Shown: piece by piece, positions 3,661 through 40,300 of the stretch | Position numbering within the stretch: position 1 is the stretch's first letter | Layout: each line of letters opens with the position of its first letter | Assembly (NCBI RefSeq): GCF_000165425.1 | Contig: NW_001798999.1 | Coordinates: 1-64,000, forward strand | Origin: Paramecium tetraurelia | Lineage: Eukaryota; Ciliophora; Oligohymenophorea; Peniculida; Parameciidae | Length of the DNA: 64,000 nucleotides | Reading direction: 5' to 3' | Made by a program: the position numbers and the translations under genes | Notes under the pieces: model-generated | What the model saw: the letters and a program-made list of their open reading frames with translations, nothing else | Told to the model about the DNA's origin: nothing | Databases searched by the model: none

Positions 3661-6600
3661 TTGTCAAAAAATGATTAATAGGAAGCTGGACTGAACATCA
3701 AGTTTGCAATCTCCATTAATAAAGGGACGAAAAATACAAATATCTGGTATCATCAAACGTTTATGCAAACGCATAAATACAAACTTGTACTGTATAATTA
3801 TTATAGGTGAAAGCTTATTATCATTCATATTTTAAACTCTTCATTAAATGCACCGTTTCATTTATGAACTTAATCTCAATACATTGCACTCGAAGAATGA
3901 GAAGATTAATCAAATACAATAGAGTGTATGACACTTACACAAATAATGAAAAAAATTCCTGCTTACAACATCATTAACATGGCTAATGACGTTTCAAGGA
4001 GATTCTAAGTATTCCTTATTGCCAAAGGAAAGATGAGGCTCAGGTACTGCCTATAGGGAAGGAGGATTATCCTATGAAAAGTGTATATGATAATAAATAA
4101 TGTAACTGAACAGCATACGACAATTATAAAACTAGTATTGAATTCAAAAGTGAATAAAGGATGATATAATAGAATCTTGAGCATTGACTTCAAACGATTT
4201 AGAATCCATGAGAAAGGAAAAAATTTCCAATAGAAATTGAAGAAATATCTTCTAGAATAAGAATAAAAGTGGCAATTTCATTTAGAAGTGTAAGTAGAAT
4301 TGCATAAGTGAAAGCCTATTTTACTTATAAAGTCAAACAAGGAATACATGAATATTTTTAGAACAAGTTGTATTTGGTACATTAAAGATGTATTGATTTG
4401 AACTTTAGTTAGTATAAGAAAGAAACATTGCTATTATAAGAAACAACATAGTATGAATGTGCATCATCATATGAACATTATGTCAATGAAGTATAATTTA
4501 ATACGAATCTAAATTAAAAGAGAAAGAATGTAAATATTATTCACAAAAAAAGGATCAACATCTATTCTGCCAGTATCAGGAGAATATTTAACTTTATGTG
4601 GTGGTTCACAAGCTAATAAACAGTCTCATACAGGGTAACCATCACCACACAATGTATGCAAGAATGATTTTATATAACTCACATGAAAGGTTAATAATAA
4701 GCAGGTATGATTTTATCATGCTTTGCTTCACACACAGCTGGCTCAAGTTATGCCAATTTCCAGATACATAAAGTGTCATTTCTCTAGAATATAGGTAATA
4801 TTGTTGGCCATACTAGTTTATCTTTTCATTTCAATATGAATATTACAAATAGCACCTTTCCTGTAGTACTTGTCGAAAATTATGATGAAAACATTAATCA
4901 TAGGATCCTATTAATAACATTGCATTTTTAAAATAGTAGTAACATCAGAATAATACGTATGTAGATTACTTGCAACAAATTTATACTACGGTTTTGTATA
5001 ACGCCCTTCATTAAATGTGTGCATGTAATTGGCTGCATTATTATTATATCAATTAGAGCAGCTATCTCAATAATTTTTGTTGTAAAGTCTGCAGGCCAAC
5101 TAAATCTATATTATCAAGCACAAAAACAGAACCAGCATAACATTTAATATACCCTGTGAAGTCGTTAAAGACTCTCATCAAAATTGTAAGGGTCCTTTTA
5201 TTATTGGTATTCAGTGTCATTTTTTAATAATTTCATGGATTTCCAAGGCATAATTTTTGCCTTTTTGAACTACCATGTTATATTCTTGCGTATTGAAACT
5301 TTGATAGTACTCTTAATTCTGGTAATCTCTGAAGTATTAAATTATTAAATCAATTCTTAAGTCCATTAATTACTTGGGATAGGGTCAACTTTTAATTGCC
5401 AAATATCAAATTAATCTTTGAGTAGTCGATTTTATTTGATGATGATTGTTAAGACACAATTCTTTTTCCAAAAGAGTCTTTTGCTCATTCAATTATTTTC
5501 TGCCTATAATATTTAGAATACACATTTAGTTGGAAAATTTGTCTTCCAGTTATTTTTGATAAATATGATTCTATCTTAATCAAACAACTAGTATTAGATG
5601 GACCTCATAGACATGTTTAGGAAAATACCAATTTACAACATTAAGTATAAAAGTGATGTGTAATACTATATTTTAGGGAAATAATAATAGAACTTATAAA
5701 AATTACAATAAACAGAACAAAGTGTGCAAATGAAATTTTTATTTATTAACTCTAATTCAGCTAAACAATCCTTTAAATAAGATCTGCTTATAAACATTAA
5801 GAGTGTGCTAAGTAAAACCCAAACATCCTTATTAATAACCAAAACAATGGCTGGGATTAAAATATACAATTACTTAATTTAGCTGAGTTGATTGCTGGCT
5901 CTTAAAAACAGGATATAGTATAAAAAGCCAGGATATTTAATTAAGTTAGCTATTTCGTGCATCATAATAATCAGGCACAAATAAGTACATAAATGATGCA
6001 AAATTGCCGAATTTTTAGAGCAAAATGAAATTAATATCGCTTTCTCTCGGAAATATTCAGCAACTCAATGATAAAGTAACGAGGAGTAGTAAGGGTGTTG
6101 CAATAAAATTGCTTTGCCATGTGGATAATAGTATAATAAAAGCTGCATAATTGATGTAACAAGTTAAGACATATACACATTTAGTGTACGCAATTAATAA
6201 TTAAAATCAGGACAAGAAATATATTTATCAAGATTCAAAAGAGTTCGAAGCAAATCAAATAACTGAAGGATAGGATACTATATTCTGGAATTCAGAATAG
6301 GAACAAATAAAATTAAGATGCAGTTTTAGATTTGATATAATTTACAACCCCAAATACACACGATGTAAATGAATTTTCAATCTCCTGAATCATTAATCAA
6401 CAATATGCTCTTCAAGTTTTGAAGTATAATGATGTCTACCAATAAAACTAGCCAATTGAGATGTATACTAAATAAAAGTGCTTAATTGAAACTGCAATAA
6501 CTGTTCTACATTTAATGCTATCAACAAAATAATTGTATGGAAGCTCTCTAATGTTCACAAATAAATCAAAGAGGTATAAGAAGGAATGTTATGAATACAA

Positions 6601-7183
6601 TTTTCATATATCTCCATTAGATCCCATTAAAAAGGAATGAGAGCAACAAAGTAAACATTTAGAATGGTTGGACTCATCAATATTCTATCTAAGAAATAAG
6701 CCCCTCCACAGTGAAAGAATTGTAAGAATACCGAAATTTATCACTTTTCAGGCACTAAAATTGGTGGGTCTCTTAAATATTTATTTGTTTGGTGGCAGAA
6801 CACTAAGTAATGAAAATTATTGCAAAAAAAAAAAATATTGATTAGTTAACAGTATAGCACGTTTGAATCAATAAGTAAATTTAGAAGGGAAAACTGTGTA
6901 TCACTTTTACAGTTTTATTTTTTGAGATTAATAAAAAATAGGTAGATACAAAATATTAACAATCCTAACTATATTTGTATATATTTATGTGATCGAAAGT
7001 TTTTTCCATAATACATTTATTTATTTATAATATCAGTCAGTAATCAACAGAATACTATATGGCACTAAATCATTTTCAACAATCAATAGCAATTCTTCAA
7101 TAACGCTCTACATTTTAAGAAAGTAAAATTAATTATTATTCTCTCTATTACGGTGTCAAAGTCAAAAAACTTAGAGTGCTAAT

Positions 7184-7207
7184 ATGACAGTTGACAGTTG
7201 ACAGTTA
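7184..7207. repeat. Short tandem repeat, 7-bp unit
   Basis: The unit TTGACAG is repeated in tandem (ATGACAG TTGACAG TTGACAG TT). It is a small microsatellite-like tract just beyond the reverse-transcriptase relic on the same decayed segment. No function is apparent. Confidence 0.6.
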
Positions 7208-7439
7208 TGAATCTAACAGATTTTATAATGCATTTTAAATAGATGTGGGAAATTCACTGGTAAATGCTTTACTATTGATTTACAGTTCTGGATAACAAAT
7301 GTTTTTTGCTGGCACTTTTCTGTATAGTAAGATTCCTCTTCTGCATTTTATAGTTCACTCATTCTTAGTGCGTGAATAGTTTGTGTGTGTTAAGAGCATA
7401 CAGACTATGGCAAATTTTTTGGGAACCTGCACAATCATT

Positions 7440-7860
7440 TATTATTAAAAGTAATAGATACTATGGTTTTGATATTGCTATTATACAGGATACTCAAGAA
7501 GTTCATTCGTATTAATTCTTGAGTGATATTAATACCATGATTCCAGATTTCTTCTTATTGATTATTAAGGAAAAATTTCGCATACTTTTTCAAATATGAT
7601 TATAATTATTTAATGTCTTGACGTTTAATTATTATAGAGATGTCGTCAGCATAGCTGTAGAGGTATCTATTTTACATAGAATATGTAGAATTTCACTCAT
7701 TAAATGGCTTCATTGTTTCTTTTTCTTCTGCTGTTTAAAAAAGGGGACTAGCAATTAAAGAAATATGTTGAAGTGTATGAAAATTTTATTGGTAATTCAC
7801 AATCACAAGTTGGTAATTGTTAATTCCTAGGATCAACGCAACTTGTAGGGTATTTCATTT
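7440..7860 (-). pseudogene. Decayed LINE-type reverse transcriptase fragment
   Basis: On the minus strand in code 6 the catalytic core is readable as RYLYSYADDISIIIKR, with the YADD box at 7653-7642. It is followed in frame by QSYLKKYAKFFLNN, then after a one-base shift by NKKKSGIM, then in a third frame by ELLEYPVQQQYQ. This order matches RT motif C, the conserved Lys-Ser-Gly-Ile strand after the palm, and the usual VxxYKYLG region. Upstream, LQVALILGINNYQLVI and SPLF resemble the motif B region (QG-SPLLF). In-frame TGA codons and at least two frameshifts show that it is dead. RTs of this layout copy non-LTR retrotransposons. No endonuclease, motif A or element ends were found. Confidence 0.75.
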
Positions 7861-8165
7861 ATTTTCATTTATATAGTTATTTTCACCGCCTTCACAAGTT
7901 AAACAGGATCCAACAAATTTTAAACATGTTATTCCTGACTTATAGAACCATTTGCACAATCACTACAATTAGTGATTGAGGAACATTTCGTAGAAGAAGA
8001 GGAAAAGCTAAAGCTATACAATCATTTGATCTTAAATTATAACCACCTTTACAAGATTAACAATGGTTTATGATGAACATGTATCACATACATCCGCACA
8101 ATCAAAACAACTCATCATCAATGATTATTAAAGTAATCCGCATGATAAGGCAGCTAAACCTTATA
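7861..8165 (-). pseudogene. Decayed cysteine-rich (furin-like repeat) surface protein fragment
   Basis: Minus-strand reading in three alternating frames gives a string of CxxC units: SCFDCADVCDTCSSQT, then HCQSCKGGYNLRSNDC, then CSSITNCSDCANGS, then SCLTCEGG. The spacing is that of growth-factor-receptor or furin-like cysteine-rich repeats, which are very common in Paramecium membrane proteins. The repeated frame changes mean it is a relic. It directly abuts the reverse-transcriptase fragment, so one may have inserted into or beside the other. Confidence 0.55.
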
Positions 8166-10192
8166 GAGAATATTACTATAGTTAAATTGCAGAATAAATC
8201 AAAAGAAATTGGACAATATTCTTTATTGGCACTTTTTGTTTAAATTAAATTTTGAAAATCTTTCTAAAAATATATTAAAATTGTCATTAGAGTTATTTAT
8301 ACATTTAAAAAATAATATTAATAACTATATATTATGATTAACTCCTATCATTTAAAAAAAGGGACATTCCTAATACATAAATTGCAGCAACATATATAGA
8401 AATGATAAAGGACATCTTTAAAATTCTGGCCTATAAACTTTTTTTTATCATCTAATTGCTTTTAAGGAAATCTTAATTTTTCAATAAACTAATAAAGATA
8501 TCTTTTCAATTCTAAATCAAAAAAAATACAGCTCAGTGTTCTCTATATTCAGAATTAAATTAACATGTTTAAGTAAAATAATAATTACTACTTTTGTGAA
8601 TATAAATAAGTCTTTCCATTAAAGGGTATTAAATTTCCTTATTAATAATAGTCAATAATGGCTCCTCCATAATAAAAAATAATTCCTTCCTACCCCAAAA
8701 TATATTTTGCTGTTTTTTTGCATAAGTAACTGTCAGAGAATGAGATTTTTCTTTTTAGAGAGAATTTCAAGTATTTTATGTTGAAAATGCAGCCCAATAT
8801 TACTTTATGTGAGGACTTTCAAGTGAGAAGATCGAAGTAGAAACTGAAAAAGTAAAATAATAATACAAAATTATTTGAGATTAGTTTAGCAAACAATTTG
8901 TATTGATTCTAATTATAAAATTTAAATGAATACTCAATTTTATTTCAAAAAATTGGAAGCAAGTTTAATATTTTAATAAGTACTCTTTTATAGATTTGAA
9001 TTCTGTTGCGAAATCTTTGATTAATTAATTATGTTTATATCTTTAACCTATATTATATAACTAACTATGTTTTTAGAAAGAAGCTTGCAGTGTAGGAATT
9101 TAAAAAGTTTCATAAATTTATTTGGAGAAAACTAGGTAGACTACCTTCAATTATTAAGTTCATTTTCTAAACAAATCATACTAAAACAATAATAGATATA
9201 ACATGATTTGTCATTATGCTAGAAAGAAATACCAAATGGTTTTTATTCTTTAAAAACAAGGAAATTTGAAACCATTTTAGATTTGATAGAATGGAGGTAA
9301 AGTATTAAATTAATATATTAGTATTGTAATAATTATAAAGTCAAATTGTGTAATAAAAATAATTTAAACTAATAAAGTTATCGTCTGAAATAGTAAAGTA
9401 TATTATAATTTCTTCCTTTTATACTGTTCTTTTCAAACCTTTTTTCACAATCCAAAATAGATAATATACTAATACAAAATTTAATAAACTATCTCATAGT
9501 TGGTTATAATATCTGTTCAAAGATTTAACCTTCAAATGATAAAGGAAGACCTACTATCATGAAATTTTGAGAAATTAACTGACTAAATTAAAATGTAAAA
9601 ATATATCAATTGTCTTTGATTTTTTAAGCCCATCAGTGGCCTTCCAGAAAATAACATTAAAGCTTTTGTTTAACTTAGAAAAGTAGAAGCATAGATCATT
9701 CTAATAATTATAATCTTTAAACAGGAGACTATGTTTTCGAAATTAATGTTTAAATTTCGAAGGAGATAAAAATTTTAGAGCAAATTACTACTCTTTGTGT
9801 AGGTATTCTTTTTAAAGAATTATAAAATTCATAATTCACAAATACTCCATTAATTTACAAAAATGGATGCAATTGTAGCAATAGAACAGATTTAGGAAAC
9901 TACTAGATTGGCTTTAATTTTGTCAACATCTAAGACTCCAAAATCTTGTTGACAATCCTTAATACATAATAAATATTATTTTAATGTAAAACACTTTTAC
10001 TTGATTACCTAGTAAATAGTGATAGAAACATCTTAGCTAACAATTATTACAAGACTTTAGATAATATATTAGTTTATCACGAAGAACTTTAACTCCGCGA
10101 AAAACAGAATCAACTTCAAAATAGCATTTAATTCCCATCCAAAATCAATATATGAATGAGAAAATAAAATTAAAAAATGATTAATTTAATAA
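8166..10192. other. Two-kb AT-rich stretch with no confident gene
   Basis: Most of this interval shows no convincing coding signal in either strand. The only ATG-initiated open frame of note is plus-strand 8659-8928 (about 89 codons, beginning MAPPQQKIIPSYPKIYF). It contains a 33-nt GTA...TAG segment that could be an in-frame intron. It matches no family I recognise and may be chance or decay. Confidence 0.4.
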
Positions 10193-11285
10193 TCATTTCT
10201 TCGATTTCTGAGCACAAATCTACTTGCAATTCTCTAAATTAATTATTTAATTAAAATACCCATTAAACTGTTTACCCGCTAATCACCAGGTTTATACTTC
10301 AAAAACTTTTGATAGCAAATCATAGCATCATCATAGTTTCCTAAATTTTCTAAACATTACCCTAGAAAATAGAATAATAAAATACCTTTTATTTGAATTG
10401 GAAAAGTGTTATAATGTTCAATTTAGAGTGCTTAATTCAGAAAAATTAAAGATTCTTCATACTTCCCTAATTTTCTTAAACATTCACCTAATGATTTAAC
10501 TACATTAATTTACCTTTATTACTTAAAGAATTAACATGTTTAGGATTTATTTCTATTGCTTAATCTAAGCAAACTAATGCATCTTGATATTTATCCAACA
10601 ACCTTAAACATGCACCTTATTATATTTATTATCAATACCTTTACATCCTAAAGCCAAAAAATTAGAAGGATCTAATTAAATTGACATATTTAACTATTCT
10701 ATAGACTCCTAAAATTTCCCACTACAATATAAATTATAACCTAAAAATTTAATTGATAATATTACCTCTTTGATAAAATTCTGCTGATATTTTTTAATAA
10801 TCTATCAAATAAGTAATTTAAGATAATTTTAATTATTCCTTTAAGTTACTAAATTAAAGATCTAATTTTTTAGTCATTTCTGTAATGATAGGTAAAATTG
10901 ATTATTTGTATTCATCAAATTTGATAGCTGAACTCAAGTAATCATTTAATTATTATAAATTCAAAATCATTATCCTTTCCTTTTATAAATAATATTTTTC
11001 TTCTATTCCCTTAATCAATATCTCTGATGATTTAAGGAGTCCTTAGATTATATTATTTAAGGTGTCTTTTAAATTTTGAAATTATTTATTCTAATTTTCT
11101 ACAAATTCAGATAGGCTACCTATATGTTCAACATCATTCATATGATTTCGATGGATTCCTTACTTAGTACATTTAAAACAATGGAATCTAAATTCATTGC
11201 AATATGGGTGATAACAAATAGCATTTATGCTGTCATTATGATCATTTATTTGGCATTTTAGAGTAATATTTGCTGATTAATCCAT
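10193..11285 (-). CDS. TPR-repeat protein with N-terminal zinc-binding module
   Basis: Translated from ATG 11285 the protein is 322 aa after removal of five introns of 25, 23, 26, 24 and 26 nt, which restores an exact reading frame. The N-terminus has a Cys/His cluster (CQINDHNDS, CYHPYC, FHCFKCTK, HRNH) like a B-box-type zinc module, then a coiled-coil region. From about residue 190 there are tetratricopeptide repeats (GYNLYCSGKFQESIEQLNM, LRLLDKYQDALVCLDQAIEI, CLRKLGKYEESLIFLNQAL, CLENLGNYDDAMICYQKFL). TPR repeats are helical protein-docking scaffolds. This architecture is common in Paramecium multigene families. The stop is TGA 10195-10193. Substrate and partners are unknown. Confidence 0.88.
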
Positions 11286-39139: not shown

Positions 39140-40300
39140 TCAAGTGAACATGTAAAAGTTATTGCTATCCACATTCAACTCGTGAAAAATCTATCCAACT
39201 AACTATCTCATCTTAGGAGGACCACAGACCAAGACCAAAGTATGCTTATCGATGGTTCCAAAAGCCCTTTCAATCATAGACCTTGAAACAAATCCAGAAA
39301 ATTGAACCCATGAAGCAAGAGGCTAAGCATAATATTAATATAAAATGGTACCTTGTCCAAAGTGAGGTGCAATTTTATTTTTTTTGAAGCTTCAAAAGCC
39401 TTCAATTCGTTGTATAATAATATATCTTACTAAGTGATAGAATATTAAATATTACTTAAGTTTTATTTGCATAAAGCAATTGCAATTGTGTTTTATCACT
39501 ACTATTATTTGCCACAGCTTGAATAATTTAGTACATGGGGGCTATTCCTGATCCACCAGCAATCATCATTATTCTTTTGTATTTTGCGGTTATTCTCTGT
39601 GGTTTTTAAATTCTAAAAGTGTTTCCACTGCCGAAATAGAAAAAGGAACCTAAAGGACTTTTGATTAAAGCAGAATCTCCTGGCTTAAAAATTAATTATT
39701 TTTTACAATCATTTTTTCAATCCAATAATTGAAACTACTTCGATTTTGTTCATCTTTTTTAATTTTACTTTCATTTTGGTCATCTTTCTCAATTTTACTT
39801 CCATTTTGGTTATCTTTTTCAAATTCACTTCCATTTTGATCATCTTTCTCAATTTTACTTCCTTTTTAGTTATCTTTTTCAAATTCACTAACTTTTTGGT
39901 TATCTTTCTCCAATTCCCTTCCTTTTTGGTTATCTTTCTCCAATTCACTCTAGATCTTAACTAATAATTCGAATTTGCCTTTCTGATCAATTGGGTTGAT
40001 TGGAAAGTACATATTATTCAATTCATATTTATTTGGATGGCTAAGTATTTAAAATTTTTACTGTAAGCTAATATACTATCCTACTTTGATTCCTAAATCA
40101 TTAATTTTTGACGGAAGAGCAAATTTAAGTTTATAGGTATCATGATTTAATTTAGTTTTCTCTATCAATTAACATGTTTGCTCTTCTATTTTCTAACTCT
40201 GTTCCTGAGCACTAAAATTATTGGATTAGTTATAGTTTGCCCAAAGTATTAAAACCAAAATTAGTAGAAGCAGGGAAACTAAAATAACAAAAAAAATCAT
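39140..40300 (-). CDS. Membrane-anchored NADH-cytochrome b5 reductase with internal tandem repeat
   Basis: 353 aa after four introns (21, 23, 26 and 29 nt). An N-terminal anchor (MIFFVILVSLLLLILVLILW) precedes the FAD barrel (HDTYKLKFALPSK, VGQYISLHHPN, KGKFELLVKI). The NAD domain carries GDSALIKSPLGSFFYFG, then MIAGGSGIAPMYQIIQAV, LQLLYANKTQQDILLYNEL and the closing VLVCGPPKMRQLV, TGA 39142-39140. The enzyme passes electrons from NADH through FAD to cytochrome b5 for lipid desaturation and related work. Two oddities: the usual RxYTP flavin motif reads NMYFPI, and a seven-copy 10-residue repeat is inserted between the FAD and NAD domains. The start is 19 bp downstream of the preceding gene's stop. 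Confidence 0.9.
39738..39949 (-). repeat. 30-bp tandem repeat (7 copies) inside the reductase gene
   Basis: Seven imperfect copies encode a 10-residue unit of consensus ELEKDNQKGS (variants KIEKDDQNGS and EFEKDNQNGS) with no frame disturbance. The unit is highly charged and likely helical or extended. It sits at the linker between the flavin and nucleotide domains. Copies differ mainly by N/D, K/N and L/F/I exchanges, which suggests minisatellite-like expansion followed by divergence. Confidence 0.9.

Follow-up and report, generated by a model that had tools for sequence, protein, structure and literature searches.

That the Paramecium MAC retains reverse transcriptase (RT) sequences is already on record. 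Guérin et al. (2017; PMC5405496) describe such sequences and place five groups of Paramecium LINEs in one ciliate clade. In one table of that paper LINEs make up 0.84% of what is MAC-destined, or 0.62 Mb, and its Table 1, to which a read-depth cut applies, gives 0.24 Mb for all transposable elements there and 92% of transposable element sequence as MIC-limited. Sections of PMC3408717, citing Le Mouël 2003, tie the fragmentation of MAC chromosomes to the heterogeneous elimination of repeats. According to parts of PMC8354472, constitutive MAC assemblies measure 66-73 Mb for most sequenced aurelia species and MAC-variable regions amount to 10-16 Mb in four species. Finally, passages of PMC9788069 place the classical serotype genes in subtelomeric positions and propose that a surface-antigen pseudogene lying in an under-amplified region could mark an alternative chromosome end.

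The window analyzed here is a stretch of 64,000 nucleotides, C46:1-64000, in an assembly of 69.07 Mb and 231 contigs. A sequence-only reading had assigned positions 7440-7860 to a LINE-type RT relic kept in a somatic ciliate chromosome, and the three minus-strand motifs on which it relied are present upon translation just as it described them: YSYADDISIIIK in a first frame, KSGIM in a second and EYPVQQQYQ in a third. In an alignment with RT segments taken from five further loci in this genome, they follow the order found in LINE RTs, motif C being succeeded by a KSGIM-like strand and then by a P..YKYLG-like strand, although EYPVQQQYQ is a weak match to this last one. In the relic on contig C214 the letters INKKKSGIM are identical to those in the window. 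We take the RT feature in Table 1 to be a real but badly decayed RT relic, smaller than had been claimed. It resembles LINE groups 1-5, as far as these are set out in PMC5405496, in being MAC-retained RT with motif C and the subsequent strands, a likeness drawn from motifs; unlike those groups, it amounts to about 190 bp of RT in which motifs A and B escape detection.

Table 1. Features assigned around the RT relic (window positions)
Feature	Position	Strand	Content and evidence
Decayed shared stretch	6129..6696	not settled	blastn 72-76% identity; tblastn pieces on both strands
Short stretch	7140..7235		75% identical to last 0.12 kb of contig C97
Possible weak extension of RT relic	7424..7468	minus	single-sequence alignment with C15 relic only, score 79
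LINE-type RT relic	7469..7656	minus	motif C (SYADD), INKKKSGIM, EYPVQQQYQ; two frameshifts; frameshift-tolerant profile alignment 49.9
Open motif-C piece of RT relic	7573..7680	minus	36 aa, code 6; matches positions 147-173 of the RVT_1 profile (Pfam) with E = 0.077
Junction, RT relic / cysteine-rich pseudogene	7657..7732	minus	without assignable homology; contains TGA
Decayed cysteine-rich (VSP-like repeat) pseudogene	7733..8109	minus	four frameshifts and one TGA in alignment

Support for the RT assignment comes from a profile-to-DNA local alignment tolerating frameshifts, written for this analysis. The profile combines pieces from contigs C15, C214, C169, C208 and C182, each of them one uninterrupted frame, and the 301 control chunks, each 800 bp long, came from the window (159) and from ten further loci (142). 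With a frameshift penalty of 12 the relic scores 49.9 (57.9 with a penalty of 8), whereas none of the control chunks reaches its score, their maximum being 37.1 at penalty 12, and neither does any of 500 column-shuffled profiles (maxima 37.9, at penalty 12, and 37.6). The fitted probability at penalty 12 is about 3e-6 per chunk, or about 5e-4 across the 159 window chunks. Leaving out each of the five profile members in turn gives 49.5-54.5 at the relic versus maxima of 35.3-41.2 in the window controls. These figures, together with the stability of the leave-one-out result, make it very improbable that the resemblance arose by chance in AT-rich DNA translated with code 6, even though several observations lean that way: two frameshifts are needed to obtain the match, the five profile rows were hand-picked from the relics read, after the window motifs had been seen, and the Pfam values are weak. 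RVT_1 matches two in-frame pieces with E values of 0.077 and 0.06, both under the cut-off and second to DUF5673, and Pfam found no RT in seven window pieces that were longer or in other frames, some of them off frame. A single relic used as query, L018, is also unspecific for the relic place, scoring 71 there versus 74 at another place in the window and aligning in the wrong register. The place is absent from the lists of whole-genome single-frame searches made with RVT_1 and with the RT proteins of C15 and C214; a PDB search with the 36-aa piece gave four weak matches (E >= 1.1), none of them an RT, and tblastn of a 7457-7840 piece against phages gave no match.

An intact LINE ORF was not found: the RT piece contains two frameshifts within 188 bp, the second stepping round a TGA, and positions 6001-8000 hold no open (TGA-free) stretch of 230 codons or more, as is also the case in two other of the 32 blocks of the window. 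Neither motif A nor motif B of RT was detected upstream of motif C, and a scan of the minus strand from 5500 to 9500 with the N-terminal part of the C15 RT reached at most 59, versus a window-wide maximum of 71. A scan downstream of the relic for the LINE C-terminal part found none, and the weak extension in Table 1 is absent from the five-locus profile alignment. At C15 and C74 we noticed by eye letters that we take to be endonuclease-like; a search of the assembly with PF03372 (APE endonuclease) listed neither C46 nor the C15 and C74 relics.

The upstream part of the stretch read as RT has another origin. On the same strand, 8109-7733 aligns with the protein encoded at C229:129.2-130.4 kb with a frameshift-alignment score of 208, whereas 300 shuffles reached at most 71 and the next best window chunk 65. 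This C229 frame is cysteine-rich and matches the Pfam VSP family PF03302 at 1.1e-10, and a whole-genome search with 7457-7840 finds, besides itself, C229 at E = 0.003 through residues 1-37, the upstream part. The pseudogene shares both cysteine spacing and sequence with the C229 VSP-like gene but, unlike it, is broken and adjoins an RT relic. Since 8109-7733 is a cysteine-rich pseudogene, 7733-7860 is not RT, and we rejected it as such. The claimed extent of 7440-7860 therefore merges two unrelated relics, RT at 7656-7469 and the pseudogene at 8109-7733. The damage that had been reported in the RT is likewise divided: the two frameshifts do lie inside the RT piece, but the TGA near 7693 falls in the junction between both relics, outside that piece.

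The alignments of the two relics are separated by 76 bp and lie on one strand, and of the RT domain the later portion alone was detected. This arrangement would suit a 5'-truncated LINE that had inserted into the cysteine-rich gene with the orientation of that gene. We consider this origin possible but doubtful, as the pseudogene is not detectably resumed past the RT (the best piece, 6022-5638, scores 60, below the best background of 65) and 6129-6696 is taken by another shared relic. In that shared relic, blastn matches 6129-6451 to C231, and the part of it from 6230 onward to C169, at 72-73% identity, and it matches 6577-6696 to C107 at 76%; a further C169 piece matches 5939-6224 at 65% identity. 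The C231, C169 and C97 relatives of these stretches lie no more than 5.6 kb from a contig end, and C107 is itself a 14-kb contig.

The window as a whole is read in the ciliate code, with TAA and TAG as Q. This assignment is well supported: code 6 gives long frames, one of 2959 aa, and code 11 leaves a single ORF of at least 150 aa in the window. Between 1384 and 9570 there are seven code-6 ORFs of at least 150 aa, and Pfam found no family over its cut-off in the five of them that were searched (a BVU_2266-like match lay under it); the ORF at 9832-10722 encodes TPR repeats according to Pfam. Elsewhere in the window, tandem 30-bp units in about seven copies occupy 39736-39949, inside a 318-aa code-6 ORF on the minus strand. 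At the beginning of the window, positions 1-397 are 81-90% identical to the start of contig C169 (L010:579-1212), and the starts of both C46 and C169 hold what we take, naming them from their letters, to be WD40-like repeats. The RT relic lies 7.5 kb from this contig end. This end is presumed to be that of a chromosome; the window contains no run of at least three telomeric units, and by eye none was seen at four true contig ends either.

Taken together, these observations make it very probable that the relic is a dead non-LTR (LINE) fragment of the known Paramecium or ciliate kind, lying in relic-rich, gene-poor DNA next to a cysteine-rich gene that is also dead. The elements that carry this reading were each demonstrated, namely the RT similarity, the order of the motifs, the frameshifts, the adjoining pseudogene and the other RT-like places in the assembly. 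At least 12 such places turn up with RT queries at E <= 0.006 (on contigs C74, C15, C214, C169, C208, C210, C230, C182, C128, C202, C91 and C50), a count from which C195, with an E value of 0.05, was left out. The relics on C15, C214 and C169, read through by eye, are all broken by frame changes, and the RT match on C50 is without a stop. With so many LINE-RT-like places elsewhere, retention in the window is not exceptional. The surprise that the sequence-only reading had expressed at finding such a sequence in a somatic chromosome is thus misplaced, given also the MAC-retained RT in print, at least in the portions of PMC5405496 that treat it. The profile scan does support its central claim, that a ciliate assembly of somatic type holds a relic of LINE-type RT.

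It had offered two routes to retention, sufficient age or imprecise excision, and the decay of the RT relic agrees with an age sufficient for escape from elimination. A LINE copy would have entered MAC-destined DNA long ago, its 5' part may have been lost through truncated reverse transcription or later deletion, and the fragment would then have decayed neutrally. It would still be replicated in the soma, elimination no longer being triggered, probably because it is too short and too diverged to be targeted, and it would have neither product nor function. The other route would make the junction between RT and pseudogene the joint left by imprecise elimination, germline LINE DNA having been removed in MAC development and its flanks joined, with more of the LINE in the micronucleus. 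Like the insertion of a truncated element, this concerns the origin of the same relic and does not deny it. Sections of PMC3408717 describe imprecise elimination of Paramecium repeats, accompanied by fragmentation or by internal deletions that vary, and the RT relic does end beside another relic close to the contig end; yet the RT piece is itself heavily decayed, like an old fossil, and the relics at C15, C214 and C169 are broken as well, so that we hold this route to be unlikely.

Six of the 12 RT-like places outside the window (C208, C210, C128, C91, C50 and C74) are no farther than 21 kb from a contig end, versus 1.4 expected, a limit that was set after the data were seen. For the end distances, Fisher's combined p is 0.029 and the KS p is 0.12; an enrichment toward ends is suggestive only. 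We tentatively entertain the idea, without favoring it, that MAC chromosomes break where the germline DNA is rich in transposons and that somatic LINE relics therefore gather toward chromosome ends, the outer 10-20 kb being a graveyard in which surface-protein genes and LINEs decay together.

Similar LINE remnants have already been described in such genomes, and the relic in the window is an ordinary fossil. Alone it matters little, as a further LINE fossil from a Paramecium genome of MAC type. It does carry a caution, which is that the eye readily over-extends a short RT match when cysteine-rich pseudogene DNA adjoins it. If the enrichment toward ends is true, LINE relics would mark the borders of germline transposon arrays with somatic chromosomes.
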